Shown: positions 2,340 to 10,851 of the stretch, piece after piece
Numbering within the stretch: the stretch's first letter is position 1
Layout: the number at the start of each line of letters is the position of its first letter
DNA from: Faecalibacterium prausnitzii
GTDB lineage: Bacteria > Bacillota > Clostridia > Oscillospirales > Ruminococcaceae
DNA: 64,000 bases
Assembly (NCBI RefSeq): GCF_003287405.1
Contig: NZ_PRLD01000003.1
Location: 62,001-126,000, forward strand
Direction of reading: 5' to 3'
Notes under the pieces: model-generated
Seen by the model: the letters and a program-made list of their open reading frames with translations, nothing else
Database searches by the model: none
What the model was told of the DNA's origin: nothing
Translations under genes and position numbers: made by a program

Positions 2340-4124
2340 ATGGAAGATACAAGAGCAGAAGCCCTGCCCATCGGCGCGGCAGAGGCGGCGGCTGCATTGC
2401 AGACGCTGCAGCGCTACAAGGCGGGCAAGGCGGCGCTGGACAAGCGCCTGATCGACAACGAGCTGTGGTTCCGCATGGGACACTGGAAAAACTACCGCGA
2501 CCCGCTGATGCCCGGCAAGGCGCAGCCCTCCAGCGGGTGGCTGTTCAACAGCATCGCCAATAAGCACGCCGACGCCATGGACAACTACCCCGAGCCCATG
2601 GTACTGCCCCGGGCGGCAGACGATCAGGCCACGGCGCAGGCGCTTTCCAGCGTGCTGCCGGTGGTGCTGGAACAGGCGGATTACGAGCAGGTGTACAGCG
2701 ATGTCTGGTGGCGCAAGCTCAAGCAGGGCACCGGGGTTACCGGCATCTTCTGGGACCCGGCGGCGCGCGGCGGGCTGGGTGACATTGCGGTGCGCAGCGT
2801 CAACCTGCTCATGCTCTACTGGGAGCCGGGCGTGCAGGATATTCAGGACTCGCCGGACTTGTTCCACCTCAGCCTTGAGGACACCGCCCGGCTGACCGCG
2901 CAGTATCCGCAGCTGGCAGGGCACGCCGCCGGTGTGGTGGACGTGCCCCGGTACATCCACGAGGACGGTCAGACCACCGCCAACAAGAGCGTGGTGGTGG
3001 ACTGGTACTATAAGCGCCCGGACGAGAGCGGCAAATTGCGGCTGCACTACTGCAAGCTGTGCAACGGCGTGGTGCTGTATGCCAGCCAGAACGACCCGGC
3101 GCTGGCGGCGCGCGGGCTGTACGACCACGGCAAGTACCCCTTTGTGTTCGACCCGCTGTTCGTGGAGGAGGATTCTCCCGCCGGGTTCGGCTACATCGAC
3201 GTGATGAAGGACTGCCAGAACGCCATTGACCGGATGAACCACGCCATGGACGAGAATGTGCTGCTGGCCTCCCGCCAGCGGTATGTGCTCAGCGATACCG
3301 CCGGGGTGAACGAGGAAGAACTGGCCGACCTGAGCCGGGACATCGTGCACGTTGTGGGACGCCTGAACGAAGATTCCTTCCGTCCGCTGCAGACGGCGGG
3401 CCTGCAGGGCAACAGCCTGAGCTATCGCAACAGCCGCATTGAGGAGCTGAAGGAGATCAGCGGCAACCGCGACCTGACGCAGGGCGGCACCACTGGCGGC
3501 GTGACCGCCGCCAGTGCCATCGCCGCCTTGCAGGAAGCGGGCAGCAAGCTGAGCCGGGATATGCTCAAGAGCGCCTACCGCGCCTTTGCAAAGCAGTGCT
3601 ACCTCATTATTGAGCTGATGCGGCAGTTCTACGACGAGCAGCGGGTGTTCCGCATCACCGGGCAGCGCGGTGAGAGCGAATTCGTGCCCTTCTCGGCGCA
3701 GGGGCTGCGCGCAAAGCCCATGCCCGCCGTGGGCGGGGTGGAGCTGGGCAGCCGGGAGCCTGTCTTTGACATCGTGGTCAGCGCCGCCAAAAAGAGCACC
3801 TTCAGCCGCCTGTCCCAGAACGAGACCGCCAAGGAGTGCTATAAGCTGGGCTTCTTTGACCCCGCCAACGCGGACGCTGCCCTTGCGGCGCTGGAAATGA
3901 TGGACTTTGAAGGGGTGGAAAAGGTGCGCGCCCGGGTGCGGCAGAACGGCACGCTGGCGCAGCAGCTGGTACAGCTGCAAGGGCAGATGGCAAGACTGTC
4001 TGCCGCTCTTGCGCAGCAGCCCGGCGGCACCCAAGCGGCGCAGGACACTGCCGGTCTGACGGCACAGCTGCCGGTGGCGGCGGCTGCCCGCGCCATGAAT
4101 TGGAACGGAAAGGAGGTGAAGTGA
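2340..4124 (+). CDS. phage portal protein
   Basis: A 594-residue protein placed between the large terminase and the scaffold/capsid genes, the standard place for the dodecameric portal ring through which DNA enters and leaves. The body is mixed alpha/beta with an acidic N-terminus and a C-terminal Gln/Ala-rich helical tail (about residues 530-590), as in large podovirus-type portals. The length is within the range of podovirus portals and longer than typical siphovirus ones. A ribosome binding site (GAAAGGA) precedes the ATG. The stop is separated by a single base from the next start, so the genes form one operon. Family assignment is by context and general resemblance. Confidence 0.8.
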   Translation: MEDTRAEALPIGAAEAAAALQTLQRYKAGKAALDKRLIDNELWFRMGHWKNYRDPLMPGKAQPSSGWLFNSIANKHADAMDNYPEPMVLPRAADDQATAQALSSVLPVVLEQADYEQVYSDVWWRKLKQGTGVTGIFWDPAARGGLGDIAVRSVNLLMLYWEPGVQDIQDSPDLFHLSLEDTARLTAQYPQLAGHAAGVVDVPRYIHEDGQTTANKSVVVDWYYKRPDESGKLRLHYCKLCNGVVLYASQNDPALAARGLYDHGKYPFVFDPLFVEEDSPAGFGYIDVMKDCQNAIDRMNHAMDENVLLASRQRYVLSDTAGVNEEELADLSRDIVHVVGRLNEDSFRPLQTAGLQGNSLSYRNSRIEELKEISGNRDLTQGGTTGGVTAASAIAALQEAGSKLSRDMLKSAYRAFAKQCYLIIELMRQFYDEQRVFRITGQRGESEFVPFSAQGLRAKPMPAVGGVELGSREPVFDIVVSAAKKSTFSRLSQNETAKECYKLGFFDPANADAALAALEMMDFEGVEKVRARVRQNGTLAQQLVQLQGQMARLSAALAQQPGGTQAAQDTAGLTAQLPVAAAARAMNWNGKEVK

Positions 4125-4125
4125 G

Positions 4126-5052
4126 ATGATCAAGGTATGTTACAGCGAGCTGGACGGCCCCGAGGGGCTGAGCCTGCGGCTGGAAGCCGCCGGTCACGCG
4201 GGCTATGCGCCCGCCGGGCAGGACATCGTATGCGCTGGCGCAAGCACCCTGATGCAGGCACTGGTGTACCTGCTGGCAGGGGAGGAAAACGCCCGCAGCG
4301 ATGCATGGGACGAGCCGGAAGGCCCGCGCCTTGCTGTGGCAGCGCAGGCACCGGTAGCGCCGTGGGTGCAGGGCGCGTTTGAACTGGCCAAGGCGGGCTT
4401 TACCCTGCTGGCAGAGCGCTACCCGGACAACCTGCGCTTTGCGGATGTGAGCCGCAGCGGACAGCAGAGCATGATGGACCTGCAGCTGTTTGCGGAAGGT
4501 GAAGCCGCCCCCGCGTTGAGCCCGGAACAGACCCGGCAGGCAGTGGCTGCGGGCACCCTGAAGCCGGAAGCCCCCGCCGCGCAGCCGGAAGTGCCCCGGC
4601 AGACCCCGGCAGAGCCGGAAAAGCAGCCGGAAACACCCGCACAGCCGGAGCGTCCGGTGCTGCCGCCCCTGCCGCTGCCGGTGCAGAACACGGTGCGCGG
4701 CTTGCACGCCCGCTGGGCGGCAGAGGAAGCCGCCATGCGCCGCAGCCAGCCGGGCTTTGACCTGAAAGCAGAGCTGAAGAACCCGGAGATGCGCCGTCTG
4801 ATGCAGCTGCCCGGTATGCGGGTGCAGGACGCCTACCGCCTTGCCCACTACGAGGATGCCCTGCGCACCACGGCACAGACCGTGGAGCAGGGGGTGGTGG
4901 AACGGGTGCAGCAGCGCGCCGCGCGTCCGCTGGAAAACGGCCTGCGCCCCGGTGCTGCGGTTTCGGTACGGCCGGACGTAGCCGCTATGACCCGCGCCCA
5001 GCGGGAAGCCTTGGAGCGCCGTGTGCTGCACGGTGCACAGATCGAACTTTAA
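4126..5052 (+). CDS. Prp-type cysteine protease fused to a scaffold-like domain
   Basis: Residues 1-110 match the ribosomal-processing cysteine protease Prp family. GHAGYA carries His24 and GQDIVCA carries Cys36; the 12-residue spacing equals that of the catalytic His22/Cys34 pair known in Staphylococcus aureus Prp. At residues 116-125 lies MMDLQLFAEG, which resembles the Prp cleavage motif found at the start of ribosomal protein L27 and of capsid proteins in Firmicute phages. The remaining roughly 185 residues are Pro/Glu/Gln-rich then helical, as expected for a scaffold. I infer a protease-scaffold fusion that cuts itself after Phe122. An internal ATG at 4471 could also give free scaffold, although no strong ribosome binding site precedes it. 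The gene sits between portal and capsid. Confidence 0.8.
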   Translation: MIKVCYSELDGPEGLSLRLEAAGHAGYAPAGQDIVCAGASTLMQALVYLLAGEENARSDAWDEPEGPRLAVAAQAPVAPWVQGAFELAKAGFTLLAERYPDNLRFADVSRSGQQSMMDLQLFAEGEAAPALSPEQTRQAVAAGTLKPEAPAAQPEVPRQTPAEPEKQPETPAQPERPVLPPLPLPVQNTVRGLHARWAAEEAAMRRSQPGFDLKAELKNPEMRRLMQLPGMRVQDAYRLAHYEDALRTTAQTVEQGVVERVQQRAARPLENGLRPGAAVSVRPDVAAMTRAQREALERRVLHGAQIEL

Positions 5053-5075
5053 CCTGACAGGAGAAAGGAAAAAAC

Positions 5076-6074
5076 ATGATGAATTTCAACATCCAGCTGT
5101 TTGCGGACGCGCAGACCAACACCACCGGCACCATGTCGGTGGAGATGAAAACCTTTTACGAGAAGCGCCTGATCGATCAGGCAGAGCCGCGCCTTGTGCA
5201 CGACCAGTTTGCGGATTACTACCCCGTGCCCCAGAACGGCGGCAAGACCATCGAGTTCCGCAAGTACGACAGCCTGCCCAAGGCCAGCACCCCGCTGACC
5301 GAGGGCGTTACCCCCAACGGTCAGGCGCTGAACGTGACCAGCATCACCAGCGACCTGCACCAGTACGGCGGCTGGACCCCGCTGACCGATGTGCTGCAGA
5401 TGACCGCCATCGACAACAACGTGGTGCAGGCCACCCGCGTGCTGGCAAGTCAGGCCGGCCGCACCATGGACAGCATCACCCGCGATGTGCTGGCGGGCGG
5501 CACCAATGTCATTTACGCCCCCAAGCTTGGCGCAGACGGTGCCGAGACCGCCGTTACCAGCCGCAAGGCACTGGACAAGAGCTGCACCCTGACCCCGAAG
5601 CTGTTCTTTCAGGCGGCGGCGCAGCTGGGCGCGATGAACGCTGACCCCATCGGCGACAGCTACGTTGCCATCATCCACCCCTATGCGGCCTACGACCTCA
5701 AGACCTGCAAGGAGTTCATGGAGGTGCACAAGTACGCCGACCCCGACACCATGTTCCGCGGTGAGATCGGCAAGCTGGGCAACATCCGCTTTATCGAGAC
5801 CAGCGAGGCCAAGATCTGGAAGGACGATACCTGCCCGGCGGGTCTTGCAGTGTTCGGCACGCTGGTGCTGGGCGCCCACGCCTACGGCGTGACCGAGCTG
5901 GAGGGCGGCGGCCTTGAGCACATCGTCAAGCAGCTGGGCTACGGCGACGACCCGCTGAACCAGCGCGCCTCTGTGGGCTGGAAGGGGATGCGTGCCGCCG
6001 AGCGTCTGGTGGAGCAGTACATGGTGCGCATCGAGAGCGTGTCCAGCTACTCTGCCACCGCTGCCGCCAACTAA
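5076..6074 (+). CDS. N4-gp56 family major capsid protein
   Basis: The shell protein of the capsid, 332 residues. I recognise the N4-gp56 capsid family from the central GGWTPLTDVLQ region and the C-terminal DDPLNQRASVGWKG region. The extreme N-terminus reads MMNFNIQLFADAQ, a near copy of the Prp substrate motif also found inside the preceding protease-scaffold protein, so cleavage after Phe9 is predicted during maturation. A strong ribosome binding site (AGGAGAAAGG) precedes two adjacent ATG codons. The gene follows the scaffold gene directly, as is usual for capsid operons. Confidence 0.88.
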   Translation: MMNFNIQLFADAQTNTTGTMSVEMKTFYEKRLIDQAEPRLVHDQFADYYPVPQNGGKTIEFRKYDSLPKASTPLTEGVTPNGQALNVTSITSDLHQYGGWTPLTDVLQMTAIDNNVVQATRVLASQAGRTMDSITRDVLAGGTNVIYAPKLGADGAETAVTSRKALDKSCTLTPKLFFQAAAQLGAMNADPIGDSYVAIIHPYAAYDLKTCKEFMEVHKYADPDTMFRGEIGKLGNIRFIETSEAKIWKDDTCPAGLAVFGTLVLGAHAYGVTELEGGGLEHIVKQLGYGDDPLNQRASVGWKGMRAAERLVEQYMVRIESVSSYSATAAAN

Positions 6075-6084
6075 GGAGGTGCCC

Positions 6085-6297
6085 ATGGCTGAAAAGAACG
6101 TGCGCATCCGGCTGTTCAAGGACAACAGCCGCTACAAGGGCGATCTGTTCGTCAGCGTCAACGGTGTGAATTACAAGATCCGCCGGGGCGTGGAGGTGGA
6201 GGTGCCGCCCGCTGTGGCCGAGGTGCTGGAACACAGCCAGCGTCAGGACGAGCTGACCGCTGCCCGCATTGCCGCTGCGGAGAACGCAGCACAGTAA
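6085..6297 (+). CDS. small structural protein after the capsid gene
   Basis: A 70-residue protein whose ATG at 6085 sits behind AAGGAGGTGCCC; the longer open frame starting at 5992 lies inside the capsid gene and lacks such a site. The first half looks beta-rich (KNVRIRLFKDNSRYKGD) and the second half helical. Genes of this size directly after a capsid gene are often head decoration or stabilising proteins, but no family is recognised. It is followed by an intrinsic terminator, so it closes the first part of the operon. Confidence 0.7.
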   Translation: MAEKNVRIRLFKDNSRYKGDLFVSVNGVNYKIRRGVEVEVPPAVAEVLEHSQRQDELTAARIAAAENAAQ

Positions 6298-6355: not shown

Positions 6356-6366
6356 AAAAGGATGTG

Positions 6367-6756
6367 ATGAAGATGACAGTAGGAGAAGCTTTGGAGCGTG
6401 CCGAGCAGCTGCGCCCGAACTGCCGCATTGAAACCGAGACCCGGCTGCAATGGCTGCGGGAGACGGACGCCCTGCTGCGCACAAAGCTGTTTGACCGCAG
6501 CGCCGCCGGGGCGTTTGACGCGGTGGGTGCAGACCGTCCGTGGGAGCAGCCGGTGCAGGACGACCAGCCGCTGCTGGCGCCGCCGCCCTTTGATGCGCTG
6601 TACCCGCACCTGTTGTGTGCGCAGATGGACGCCGCCTTAGGCGAGACCGACCGCTACGCCGGAGAGCAGGCACAGTACAACGCCCTGTATGCGGAACTGG
6701 CGGTCTGGCTGCGGCAGAACTACCCGCCCCGCAGCCGGGCGCAGTGGCGCTGGTAA
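6367..6756 (+). CDS. putative head-tail connector protein
   Basis: A 129-residue protein with a helical, acidic character that begins MTVGEALERAEQLRPN after the first three residues and ends in a basic RSRAQWRW tail. The ATG at 6367 is preferred over the GTG at 6364 because of its better spacing from AAAAAGGA. Position after the capsid block and size suit a connector or head-completion protein. I do not recognise a family by sequence. The next gene follows 12 bases later. Confidence 0.6.
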   Translation: MKMTVGEALERAEQLRPNCRIETETRLQWLRETDALLRTKLFDRSAAGAFDAVGADRPWEQPVQDDQPLLAPPPFDALYPHLLCAQMDAALGETDRYAGEQAQYNALYAELAVWLRQNYPPRSRAQWRW

Positions 6757-6768
6757 GGAGGTGAGGCG

Positions 6769-8649
6769 ATGGTACTGGCAGACAGAATGCGGCTTGGCAA
6801 CACCCGGCAGCTGCTGCGGGCCTTTGGCGGCCTGAACGAGACCTACGGCTGCTCGGAAGCAGAGTACAGCGCCGGAGTAAACTTTTCTGCCCGGGATTTC
6901 CCAGCCCTGAGCACCCGCACCCCGCGCCGCAAACTGCGGGCGCTGACCGGGCTGAACGGGATGTACCACCTGAACGGTCTGCTGACGGTCTGCGGGCGGG
7001 ATATCACCTATACCCCGGACGATGCCGCAGCCCCGGCGGTGACGAAGGCGGACGCCGTGACCGATGGCCGCAAGGCGCTGGTGGGCATCGGCACAAAGAT
7101 CCTGATCTTCCCGGATAAGCTGGCTTTTGATACGGCAGACGGCAGCGTGACCGCACTGGGGGCGCTGTGGACGGCGGCGGACAAAAGCGTGACCTTTGCC
7201 CCCTGCGATGCCGCAGGCAAGACCTATCAGGTGGAAGCCTTTGGCCCGGACGAGCCCGCCGATCCGGCAGACGGACAGCTGTTTTTAAGGGTGGAGGATG
7301 CCGACCATCCGTGGCGGTACGACAGCACGCTGGAAATGTACAGCAAAAACTCCGGCAGCTGGGCGGCCATCCCGCTGGAATACTGCCGCATCACGGCGGC
7401 AGGGCTGGGCAAGCTGTTCCGGCAGTGGGACACCGTGACCGTGCAGGGCGCAGCCGCCGAGACTGCGGGGCAGAGCCCGGAGCTGAACGGAGATCAGATC
7501 GTGTATGACATGGGCGAGGACTGGCTGCGGGTGCGCTGCACCCCGCAGGGCGAGTATTTTTACGGCACACTGGTGCAGAACGCCGCCGCCGCGCAGTGGC
7601 AGAGTATGGACGGCAAGCAGCACCGCAGTGTGGATGCCGCACAGACGGTATCCATGGAGCGCCGGGTGCCGGAACTGGATTTTGTGACCGAGTGCGACAA
7701 CCGGGTGTGGGGCTGCAACAGCAGGGAGAACGTTATCTACGGCTGCAAGCTGGGCGACCCCACCAACTGGTTCAGCTACCGGGGCATCGCTGCAGACAGC
7801 TACGCCGTCACTGTGGGCAGCGACGGCGCCTTTACCGGGGCGGCTTCCTGCATGGGCTATGCGCTGTTTTTTAAAGAGAATACCCTGCACAAGCTGTACG
7901 GCTCCAAGCCTTCGGATTTTCAGCTTTCCAGCCTGCGCTGCCGGGGCGTGGCAAAAAACGCCGCCCGCAGCCTGTGCGTGCTGAACGAGACGCTGTATTA
8001 TCTCTCGCCGGACGGGGTCATGGCGTGGGACGGCAGTCTGCCCACCAAGGTGTCCGGTGCGCTGGACGCCGCAAAGCTTGCCAACGTGCAAAGCGCCGTG
8101 GGCGGTGCGCTGGATGGCCGGTACTATCTGCACATCTCCCGGGAGAGCGCGCGTCTGCTGGTCTACGATACCGAGAAAGGGCTGTGGAGCGAGGAGGACG
8201 TCTGCTCCTGCGATATGACCAGCACCGGCGGGCAGCTTTATCTGTGGGACGGGCAGGCGCTGTGGGCAGCAGACCCCACCCGCGAGCCGGACTGGCAGAG
8301 CACCGATAGCGTGGAGACGGACATCCCCTTTGAACTGGTCACAGGCGATGTGGGACTGGACGGCACCGAGCAGCGGTACCTCTCCCGGCTGACCTTGCGT
8401 CTGGACGCCGAACGCACCAGCACGGTGGAGGTGGCAGTAAGCTATGACGGCGGCGCGTGGGAGACGGTGGCCACCCTTGCCGCCCAAGGCCGCCGCCGCA
8501 GCTATGACCTGCCTTTTGTGCCCCGGCGGTGCGGGTCGCTGCGGCTGCGGCTTCGTGGCAAAGGACAGATCACCCTGCGCAGTCTTGTGCGCACCATCGC
8601 CCCGGCAAAGGGAAAATTATGGGAGGAGGATACCTCATGGCAAGCATGA
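6769..8649 (+). CDS. large beta-rich phage structural protein
   Basis: A 626-residue protein with a strong ribosome binding site (AAGGAGGTGAGGCG). The sequence is rich in Gly, Asp and aromatic residues with repeated beta-strand patterns, and contains WGCNSRENVIYGC, NWFSYRG and AWDGSLP segments that resemble repeated blades of a propeller or tail-nozzle protein. There is no signal peptide or membrane segment. Its place after the connector suggests a stopper, nozzle or tail-hub component of a short-tailed particle. Function is inferred from context; no family is identified with certainty. Confidence 0.6.
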   Translation: MVLADRMRLGNTRQLLRAFGGLNETYGCSEAEYSAGVNFSARDFPALSTRTPRRKLRALTGLNGMYHLNGLLTVCGRDITYTPDDAAAPAVTKADAVTDGRKALVGIGTKILIFPDKLAFDTADGSVTALGALWTAADKSVTFAPCDAAGKTYQVEAFGPDEPADPADGQLFLRVEDADHPWRYDSTLEMYSKNSGSWAAIPLEYCRITAAGLGKLFRQWDTVTVQGAAAETAGQSPELNGDQIVYDMGEDWLRVRCTPQGEYFYGTLVQNAAAAQWQSMDGKQHRSVDAAQTVSMERRVPELDFVTECDNRVWGCNSRENVIYGCKLGDPTNWFSYRGIAADSYAVTVGSDGAFTGAASCMGYALFFKENTLHKLYGSKPSDFQLSSLRCRGVAKNAARSLCVLNETLYYLSPDGVMAWDGSLPTKVSGALDAAKLANVQSAVGGALDGRYYLHISRESARLLVYDTEKGLWSEEDVCSCDMTSTGGQLYLWDGQALWAADPTREPDWQSTDSVETDIPFELVTGDVGLDGTEQRYLSRLTLRLDAERTSTVEVAVSYDGGAWETVATLAAQGRRRSYDLPFVPRRCGSLRLRLRGKGQITLRSLVRTIAPAKGKLWEEDTSWQA

Positions 8650-8822
8650 ACGGCCTGAGCAAGCTGGGTCTGCCCAAGCTCAGTGATAACATGGACCCGG
8701 AGGATGCCCGGGCACTGCGCAGCTATCTGTACCAGATGCAGGAGCAGCTGCAGTATGTACTGACCAATCTGGATACGGAAAATATGTCCGACACCCTGCG
8801 CAGCAAGCTGCAGGGATTATAA
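8637..8822 (+). CDS. small phage cassette protein
   Basis: A 61-residue protein that starts at the ATG at 8637, behind GGGAGGAGGATACCTC, and overlaps the end of the previous gene by 13 bases. The sequence is helical and amphipathic, with a likely coiled coil around RSYLYQMQEQLQYVL. The function is unknown. Small proteins of this kind in head operons may be chaperones or minor virion parts. The overlap and strong ribosome binding site make it a likely real gene. Confidence 0.6.
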   Translation: MASMNGLSKLGLPKLSDNMDPEDARALRSYLYQMQEQLQYVLTNLDTENMSDTLRSKLQGL

Positions 8823-8840: not shown

Positions 8841-10184
8841 ATGGCATCCAAAAAGAAGGAGGAACTGCTGCAGCCGGACGTGCAAACGCAGGCACAGCCT
8901 GCTGCGCAGTCCACTTACAGCACCGAGGGGCTGGACAGCCGCGCCGAAGTGGAAAAGGCTATGGCAAACGCCAGCTACCGCCCCAGCCAGCAGGTGACCG
9001 ATGCAGCCAACGCCCTGAAGCAGTGGCAGCAGAACCGCCCCGCAGACTACCAGAGCGGCTATCAGGACAGAATCAACGAGCTGCTGGGGCAGCTGCTGGA
9101 ACGGGAGAATTTTCAGTACAGCTACACCCGTGACCCGCTCTACCGCCAGTATGAGCAGCTGTATACCCTGAACGCCCACAATGCCAGCGCGGACGCGGCG
9201 GCGCAGGCGGCTGCTCTGACCGGCGGCTATGGTTCCAGCTATGCCACCAGTGCGGCGCAGCAGGCCTATCAGCAGCAGATCGGCGGGCTGGCAAGCGCCA
9301 TCCCCACCTTGTACAGTCTGGCGCTGGATACCTACCAGAGCGGCGGCGAGGAGCTGGTGACCCGGCTGGAGCAGCTGAACGGACAGGAACAGAACGCCCA
9401 GAGCTTATATGACCGGCAGCTGCAGGACTACTACACCCAATTGCAGCAGAAGGGCGATGCCTACAACGACGCCTACGCCAAGGACTACGGTCAGTATCAG
9501 GAGCACCTGAACCGGCTGGACACCCTGCACGGCTACTACACCGCGCAGGAGCAGGCGCAGATCAGCCAGCGTCAGCAGGCTTTTAATAATGTTATGACCG
9601 TGCTGGGCGTCATCGGGGATGTGGTGCAACTGGCCATCAGCGGCACCACCGGCCTGGGCAGCTTAGCGGGCAGTCTGCTGAACACCGGGTACAACATCTA
9701 CTCCGGCAACCGCGCCTACGAGGCCGAGCGCGCCGACACCCAGTGGAGCCAGCAGATGCAGGAGAAGCAGCGTCAGGACGCACTGACCCAGCAGCAGTAC
9801 GACAACACCGCCAGCGAGCGTGCCTATCAGGACGCGCTGAAGCAGCAGGCCTTCAACAATAACGTGACCAGCCAGAAGCTGAACATCGCCAAGGGCGAGT
9901 GGGCGCTGAAGCAGGCGAATGCCCAGCAGAAGGCCGCACAGGCTGCCGGTAAGGCGGCGGCTGCGGGCACAAAGTCCGGCAGCTCCGGCAGCGGCGGAAA
10001 GGCCACCGGCAGCAGCGGCTCTGCTTCCGGCGGCAGCCGCAGCACCGTCAGCGCCGGGGTGCCCTACACGGCAGCGCTGCTGCGCAGTCAGGGCAAGAGC
10101 GAGGTAGCCATCACCTCTGCCCTGCGGCAGGAGGGCTACACCCCCGCCCAGATCGCAAAGATCCTGCAGGAGATGAATCAATAA
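8841..10184 (+). CDS. Gln/Ala-rich internal virion (ejection-like) protein
   Basis: A 447-residue protein, mostly helical and very rich in Gln, Ala and Tyr. It has a hydrophobic segment around residues 253-287 (VMTVLGVIGDVVQLAI onward), long coiled-coil stretches on both sides, a Gly/Ser low-complexity linker around residues 380-400 and a short helical C-terminal domain (LRSQGKSEVAITSALRQ). This resembles DNA-ejection or tape-measure-like proteins packed inside short-tailed phage heads. It is the last gene of the cassette and is followed within six bases by a 17-bp hairpin. The specific role is inferred. Confidence 0.6.
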   Translation: MASKKKEELLQPDVQTQAQPAAQSTYSTEGLDSRAEVEKAMANASYRPSQQVTDAANALKQWQQNRPADYQSGYQDRINELLGQLLERENFQYSYTRDPLYRQYEQLYTLNAHNASADAAAQAAALTGGYGSSYATSAAQQAYQQQIGGLASAIPTLYSLALDTYQSGGEELVTRLEQLNGQEQNAQSLYDRQLQDYYTQLQQKGDAYNDAYAKDYGQYQEHLNRLDTLHGYYTAQEQAQISQRQQAFNNVMTVLGVIGDVVQLAISGTTGLGSLAGSLLNTGYNIYSGNRAYEAERADTQWSQQMQEKQRQDALTQQQYDNTASERAYQDALKQQAFNNNVTSQKLNIAKGEWALKQANAQQKAAQAAGKAAAAGTKSGSSGSGGKATGSSGSASGGSRSTVSAGVPYTAALLRSQGKSEVAITSALRQEGYTPAQIAKILQEMNQ

Positions 10185-10620: not shown

Positions 10621-10652
10621 TTTTTTGGTGGGGTGCCCAGTGGGACTCGAAC
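10559..10652. repeat. long inverted repeat of the tRNA-His 3' end
   Basis: The third repeat copy (10559-10605, + strand) faces the real 3' end and terminator of tRNA-His (10606-10652, - strand), giving nearly perfect arms of about 45 bases. If transcribed from either side it would form a very stable hairpin. It overlaps the terminator region of tRNA-His. Confidence 0.75.
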
Positions 10653-10706
10653 CCACGGTCTCCAGATCCACAATCTGGCGCGTTAACCGACTACGCTATG
10701 GGCACC
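10629..10706 (-). tRNA. tRNA-His (GTG)
   Basis: A full cloverleaf can be drawn. The acceptor stem GTGCCCA pairs with TGGGCAC, there is an extra 5' G opposite discriminator C73 as required for tRNA-His, the anticodon loop is TTGTGGA, and the T-arm contains GGTTCGAGTCC. The CCA end is encoded. It is probably transcribed after tRNA-Arg from the promoter at 10852-10880. Confidence 0.95.
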
Positions 10707-10713
10707 ACATAGA

Positions 10714-10787
<74 letters not shown>

Positions 10788-10851
10788 ACGTTGTTATCCC
10801 AATGGGTTCCATTATGGCGGCAGTTCTGTGTCGGCACAGGCTGCGAGAGAA

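Follow-up and report, generated by a model that had tools for sequence, protein, structure and literature searches.

Related maturation systems

The closest described systems are those of 80alpha, P2 and Cp-1. In S. aureus phage 80alpha, as in the locus described here, the scaffold and the capsid protein both have N-terminal sites of the LQxF|A type, and the two 80alpha proteins are reported to be cut at F|A by the protease Prp (PMC5744158). E. coli is reported not to cut these 80alpha proteins (PMC9405229). For 80alpha, Prp is described as an independent enzyme of the host, which matures ribosomal protein L27 as well, whereas in our locus it shares one chain with the scaffold and the host has no other Prp. 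According to the same report, the cleavage of capsid and scaffold by Prp is dispensable for viable 80alpha particles, while an intact N-terminal sequence of the scaffold is essential for assembly (PMC5744158), which counsels caution against taking the cut as the trigger in the present system.

The likeness to gpO of P2 is one of layout, gpO of phage P2 being described as a single chain whose N-terminal protease cleaves the capsid protein as well as gpO itself and whose C-terminal part is the scaffold (PMC7552001). It differs in that the change S107A makes gpO protease-deficient, marking it as a serine enzyme, and the description gives it no Prp domain (PMC7552001). By analogy, our fusion would work like gpO, whose architecture it fits with a putative scaffold part; its protease domain belongs to a cysteine protease family, and it is not a member of the gpO family. 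The third system is the protease encoded by the Streptococcus phage Cp-1, placed in MEROPS family C108, which shortens the major head protein by 48 residues; the description of this protease includes no scaffold fusion (PMC12445089). Phage-encoded maturation proteases resembling Prp are thus already known, and many phages related to the present locus have a separate prp gene. Among the titles and abstract openings listed in a literature search of mainly open-access papers, none describes a Prp-scaffold fusion. Protease and scaffold can also be nested genes, as in C/Nu3 of phage lambda and UL26/UL26.5 of herpesviruses.

The locus itself belongs to an element published as FpGTA I, a candidate gene transfer agent of 10.5 kb and ten open reading frames (Borodovich et al. 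2026, PMC12946183). The particles of F. prausnitzii ATCC 27766 are approximately 40 nm across, have no visible tails and contain about 9 kb of DNA, and particles containing the capsid and portal proteins of this operon have been purified from that strain (PMC12946183). Packaging of random host DNA was reported for ATCC 27766, not for the strain of the present sequence, and ATCC 27768 is listed as a further carrier (PMC12946183). The published gene list includes a possible TerS and a named head scaffolding protein. The main text contains no occurrence of the words protease, peptidase or Prp, and its authors allow for the later discovery of further genes with auxiliary structural or maturation roles (PMC12946183).

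The operon

The window, by which we mean the whole 64-kb stretch of DNA that was analysed, contains a compact operon of ten genes between positions 586 and 10184. This operon is FpGTA I, fixed in the chromosome, and not an ordinary phage: window and published element have the same kind of ten-gene operon (terS, terL, portal, scaffold, capsid), found throughout the genus. All features listed are on the plus strand.

586-870, plus: small terS-like gene, which precedes terL and opens the operon; 39-100% identity in the genus loci that have a match
798-2312, plus: terL frame, start uncertain, overlapping terS; PF03237 (E 2.4e-17), phrog_979 (E 2.5e-62)
2340-4124, plus: portal protein; PF16510 P22_portal (E 7.9e-31), phrog_156 (E 2e-78)
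4126-5052, plus: Prp-scaffold fusion, 308 residues; PF04327 at residues 13-103, phrog_13908 at residues 194-308; AlphaFold2 model
4126-4455, plus: Prp protease domain of the fusion, residues 1-110, as assigned by Pfam, profile search, Foldseek and VIA; contains His24, Asp33 and Cys36
4471-4500, plus: junction MMDLQLF|AEG, residues 116-125, where self-cleavage is predicted; translation may also start internally at Met116
4492-5049, plus: putative scaffold part, residues 123-308 (186 residues); phrog_13908, common to stand-alone proteins of related phages
5076-6074, plus: major capsid protein, 332 residues, with N-terminal NIQLF|A; TIGR04387 capsid_maj_N4 (E 8.1e-94), phrog_1357 (E 2.9e-84)
6079-6297, plus: small conserved gene; phrog_15239 (E 7.9e-23), a PHROG with no assigned function
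6364-6756, plus: conserved gene; phrog_12105 (E 3.3e-23), a PHROG with no assigned function
6769-8649, plus: conserved gene, 626 residues, of which 268-611 match phrog_511 'internal virion protein' (E 2.2e-49)
8604-8822, plus: small conserved gene, start uncertain; match in 18 of 18 genus context loci, no PHROG match
8841-10184, plus: final gene of the operon; match in 18 of 18 genus context loci, some partial, no PHROG match

The capsid protein scores 314.5 bits against a TIGR04387 cut-off of 60, which places it in the N4-gp56 major capsid family. Two tRNA genes, for His and Arg, lie on the minus strand at 10629-10788, about 450 bases past the final gene of the operon. The operon proteins of genome G160 are 91-100% identical to those of the window, and the capsid is 100% identical.

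Domains of the fused protein

The sequence-only reading had proposed that a Prp-type protease is built into the scaffold, with Prp-type sites at the junction and at the N-terminus of the capsid, and Pfam, the fold comparisons and the motif search all support this proposal. Its coordinates for the fused frame and the capsid gene proved correct, as did its placing of His24, Cys36, MMDLQLFAEG at residues 116-125, Phe122 (followed by 186 residues) and Phe9 of the capsid.

The PF04327 match reaches 44.9 bits against a cut-off of 27 (E 1.4e-11). The spacing of the putative catalytic residues, 24/33/36, is the same as that of S. aureus Prp, for which His22, Asp31 and Cys34 are described as catalytic and D31A as inactivating (PMC9405229), and none of the three residues varies among the 15 genus sequences. 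With a sequence profile built from five relatives, the structures found are those of S. mutans SMU.848 (E 4.2e-10), of S. aureus Prp (4peo/7kld, 2.3e-7) and of 2idl; 2g0i is among the PDB entries so matched. The depositions of SMU.848 and 2idl label both as hypothetical proteins. The best score against the NCBIfam equivalogs for L27-processing Prp was 23.8 bits, below their cut-offs of at least 133. The structure 1S12 is named TmPrp in a review of the family (PMC9405229).

An AlphaFold2 model of the fusion was built from nine aligned sequences. It has pLDDT values of 79-91 over most blocks of residues 1-110, with 65 for the block 21-30 that contains His24. Searched with Foldseek, the model gave 14 matches at E <= 0.001, these being SMU.848, S. 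pneumoniae 2idl, S. aureus Prp and TM1457, and in a comparison by VIA the top seven hits were all members of the Prp family (Z 11.3-13.9 over 90-105 residues, rmsd 2.2-3.0), the next having Z 6.3. The Foldseek and VIA matches chiefly span residues 1-111. Residues 1-110 thus adopt the Prp fold in the model, as the sequence-only reading had expected, and sequence and model together show a cysteine protease domain of Prp fold with its His/Asp/Cys set intact.

Confidence in the model falls below pLDDT 50 at residues 113-131, where the motif sits, which is consistent with a flexible site. Residues 184-266 are mostly helical, and the overall pTM is 0.39. We infer that the C-terminal part is a scaffold from the gene order, the helices and the published label. 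The PHROG that it matches, phrog_13908, has no assigned function, and Pfam gave no match above cut-off either for this part or for six stand-alone scaffolds.

The predicted cleavage sites

A search of all six frames of the window with the pattern [DNE][LIVM]Q[LMFYH]F[AG] found it only at 4477 and 5088, that is, at the junction and at the start of the capsid protein, which argues that its presence there is not chance. At the level of the whole 3.03-Mb genome, a degenerate DNA pattern for the motif occurs at four places, against three for a reversed-pattern control; the two beyond the junction and capsid sites fall well within other frames, one at codon 48 of 139 and one at codon 184 of 301. Elsewhere in the operon the only LQxF-like match is in the terL frame, with LQVFS at residue 431. 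Cutting at the motif would create new N-terminal peptides, predicted to be ADAQTNTTGTMSVEMK for the capsid and AEGEAAPALSPEQTR for the scaffold. By calculated mass, the fusion of 33.4 kDa would give pieces of 13.0 and 20.4 kDa, and the capsid protein would go from 36.1 to 35.0 kDa.

The fusion across relatives

Fused frames were collected from viral contigs, phage records and genomes, giving 95 frames and 48 distinct proteins, many of which are closely related. All 48 have H..D..C, and in all 48 the motif directly follows the Prp domain, at a distance from Cys to Phe that ranges from 78 to 104 residues. The sequence-only reading had suggested a database search for such fusions, and to these 48 proteins there were then added three from a second genus, described below. 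In one fused phage protein (L020), phrog_4478, 'peptidase', spans residues 1-96 and phrog_13908 begins at 106. Two protein searches of a phage collection returned 7 and 8 records, with no annotated relative among the matches listed.

A survey of 31 genomes of the genus found PF04327 in 30 of them, at 32 places, of which 26 are open frames of at least 310 codons. The six shorter frames comprise five separate prp genes (in G166, G081, G172, G165 and G170) and one interrupted gene (G174). At the five loci with separate genes (L396, L274, L397, L398 and L399 respectively), the gene order is the same, with prp and scaffold as neighbours; on sequence, they are likely to picture the unfused state. 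The surroundings of the operon were compared at 18 loci in 16 other genomes of the genus. Its downstream chromosomal neighbours, which we take to be PAP2-like, DUF1643-like and BMP-like lipoprotein genes, are the same in 12 of the 16 and different in G148, G150, G163 and G081.

This conservation bears on a rival view of the operon as an ordinary defective prophage, with the fusion a product of its decay. Such a reading would account for the lack of any tail, lysis or integrase PHROG match among the nine operon proteins scanned, and for the broken gene in G174, which has suffered a small insert. We nevertheless regard it as very improbable: the neighbours are shared across the genus, the Prp-scaffold frame is kept open at most of its places, and particles with the capsid and portal of the operon have been purified from ATCC 27766 (PMC12946183).

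The insert of G174 (L248/L400) lies just past the motif and breaks the frame; in L005 (MT836324.1) a small insert at the same point is in frame, with the motif on both sides. Similar insert text in L006, L012 and L238 suggests a small mobile repeat. It is also worth noting that G158 and G162 have second, diverged copies of the Prp-scaffold gene (L238 and L243, of 450 and 472 residues), at loci that run into further large open reading frames and are likely to be true prophages of the same lineage.

Over the order as a whole (394 genomes), the fused profile matched at full length in five places, which belong to four genomes of Faecalibacterium. Many other genomes of the order have Prp and scaffold as separate matches, side by side in several. 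A restriction of the fusion to Faecalibacterium was considered and is ruled out by g16, a second genus of the family, three genomes of which (G506, G352 and G380) carry Prp and scaffold in a single frame of 301-339 codons:

L401, 1453-2139, minus strand: Prp-scaffold fusion of g16
L402, 1408-2118: Prp-scaffold fusion of g16
L403, 1719-2438: Prp-scaffold fusion of g16

One of these three passes the Pfam cut-off. In all three the His and Cys are kept and Asn replaces the conserved Asp. Their junction sequence is DLCQFG or DLCRFD, and the capsids of the same genomes start NLRQFD, CLTQFD and CLDQFD. Junction and capsid sites have therefore both departed from LQxFA, which would fit a shifted specificity. 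The fusion occurs in 3 of the 11 g16 genomes searched, the others having a phage-type Prp that is separate or absent.

Where phages carry prp as a gene of its own, the next gene is homologous to the scaffold part, and at 20 of 32 loci (several of them near-identical) it begins, on a reading by eye, with the motif or a close variant; at the other 12 the gene picked as next was mostly wrong, cut or unclear. The starts of these stand-alone scaffolds align with the fused junction. The junction motif is thus most simply read, on these alignments, as the former N-terminus of the scaffold.

A tree of Prp domains, midpoint-rooted and drawn from a short domain, unites all 30 cellular Prps from the family sample in one clade (support 0.92) and distributes the fused Prps over at least five groups (minimum of five changes); its 'separate' class includes Prps of other bacterial genomes, and the g16 fusions are outside it.

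Conservation of protease and motif

The ratio dN/dS was calculated as a Jukes-Cantor (JC) ratio. For 15 genus sequences, in which synonymous sites are near saturation (pS 0.47-0.60), the Prp domain has a value of 0.20, the motif 0.07, the linker 0.42 and the scaffold core 0.32; for four close relatives the corresponding values are 0.05, 0, 0.35 and 0.06. Purifying selection keeps the protease and the motif, and the linker drifts.

The relation of motif to protease was examined in 72 capsid loci, reduced to 52 with less than 90% mutual identity and then to 42 with either 3 kb of upstream sequence or a Prp. The capsid motif is present in 35 of the 36 non-redundant loci with a nearby Prp (30 strict, 5 relaxed), the exception being L137, which reads LNYQMFA, and in two of the six loci without one, where L103 looks spurious by eye and L145 is real. 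The association is significant over the 42 non-redundant loci (Fisher p 6e-4), and motif-bearing capsids are enriched overall in this sample since the motif was one of the two seeds of the capsid search. Among loci found by way of Prp, which share contigs with those of the capsid search, the strict motif is present in 35 of 41 capsids, and the remaining six are five variants by eye and one fragment.

Four capsids of the same family (L129, L132, L149 and L150) have no N-terminal motif, and no Prp gene was detected near them.

Alternatively, the Prp domain might be a fossil, or help assembly without any protease activity, and the motifs might be docking peptides or remnants. The 80alpha scaffold, whose N-terminus is described as needed for assembly and its cleavage as not needed (PMC5744158), offers a precedent, and the loss of the conserved Asp in the three g16 fusions points the same way. 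Against this stand the retention of His, Asp and Cys in every one of the 48 fused proteins first collected, the low dN/dS of the Prp domain (0.05-0.20) and the tendency of prp gene and capsid motif to go together, and we consider the proposal improbable.

A possible internal start

A further arrangement to be weighed is a nested gene, in which free scaffold is mainly translated from Met116, the full-length fusion is a minor product that provides the protease, and the free scaffold, still bearing the motif, is trimmed in trans. An ATG stands just upstream of the motif in 42 of the 48 distinct fused genes, and Met116 is constant across all 15 genus sequences, in which residue 117 is M, V or I. 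The predicted anti-Shine-Dalgarno pairing at the motif ATG has a median of -7.4 kcal/mol (43 sites) against -3.3 at other in-frame starts (1000 sites; p 5e-11), and is at least equal to that of the genes' own starts (-5.5, where scorable). However, synonymous recodings give equal strength (mean percentile 0.50, p 0.15, 41 genes), at -3.2 kcal/mol the site in the window itself pairs weakly, and in five of the 48 fused genes there is no start codon at this place and the motif is still kept. With the fusion of the two genes, translation may simply have come to run through the ribosome-binding site of the former scaffold gene. We judge a nested gene to be a tentative alternative and rather unlikely.

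Host Prp and L27

In the window's genome the only PF04327 match at E <= 0.001 is the fusion itself. No gene lies between rpmA and the open reading frame upstream of it, which is presumably L21-like, and L27 begins MAHKKG. L27 was matched 27 times in the 31 genus genomes, four of which had no match, and three of the matches (L229, L230 and L231) had no readable start; the N-terminal extension is absent at all 24 loci with a readable start (23 relatives and the window's own). In the wider family PF04327 is found in 94 of 148 genomes, and among the 30 best-scoring L27 loci, 29 of them readable, the extension is present in 17 of 17 from genomes with Prp and in 0 of 12 from genomes without.

The sequence-only reading had supposed that maturation would be independent of, or in competition with, the host enzyme that processes L27. 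Independence stands, and in a stronger form, since there is no other PF04327 protein and L27 is unextended. For the same reasons competition is ruled out: with no other Prp in the window's genome, the fused protease has nothing to compete with. It would be tempting to go further and explain the fusion by the loss of Prp from the host. On the genomes compared this does not hold, because the g16 hosts carry the fusion yet retain a separate Prp of cellular size.

Proposed function

The best explanation, to which we give a probability of about three in four on sequence, model and analogy, is that the protein is the protease-scaffold of FpGTA I, laid out like gpO of P2, which would cut its scaffold part loose and trim the capsid protein. 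The scaffold would bring the protease into the growing shell. Prp would then cut after Phe122, either in cis or between neighbouring copies, to free the 186-residue scaffold, and would also remove nine residues from the capsid protein. In this way the enzyme would be supplied in step with the scaffold and held where it is needed, in a host unable to provide Prp.

Several observations weigh against the self-cleaving protease-scaffold. The g16 fusions have Asn where D31A inactivates S. aureus Prp, 80alpha particles are described as viable without Prp cleavage (PMC5744158), and the ATG before the motif in most fused genes would permit free scaffold to be made by internal initiation. The distance from Cys to Phe is variable, the model is of low overall pTM and least sure, within the Prp domain, around His24, and the scaffold role comes from context.

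If the self-cleaving protease-scaffold is correct, it provides a candidate maturation enzyme for FpGTA, and protease-scaffold fusions, known from gpO of P2, would extend to a cysteine protease family. The analysis adds that the only Prp of the window's cell belongs to a gene transfer agent. A change of the single catalytic cysteine would then be a clean switch for probing the role of the agent in a common gut bacterium.

For the genus as a whole, we think it somewhat probable that Prp has gone from ribosome maturation in Faecalibacterium and persists there solely as a maturation protease built into phage-derived particles, chiefly those of a domesticated gene transfer agent found across the genus. 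It would act as a self-cleaving Prp-scaffold, the cysteine-protease counterpart of gpO, possibly with a nested start for free scaffold. On this reading, assembly of FpGTA would hinge on one catalytic cysteine of a kind absent elsewhere in the cell. Prp has been studied as an essential ribosomal enzyme and as an antibiotic target; if this is true, it can leave the ribosome and join a capsid assembly machine.
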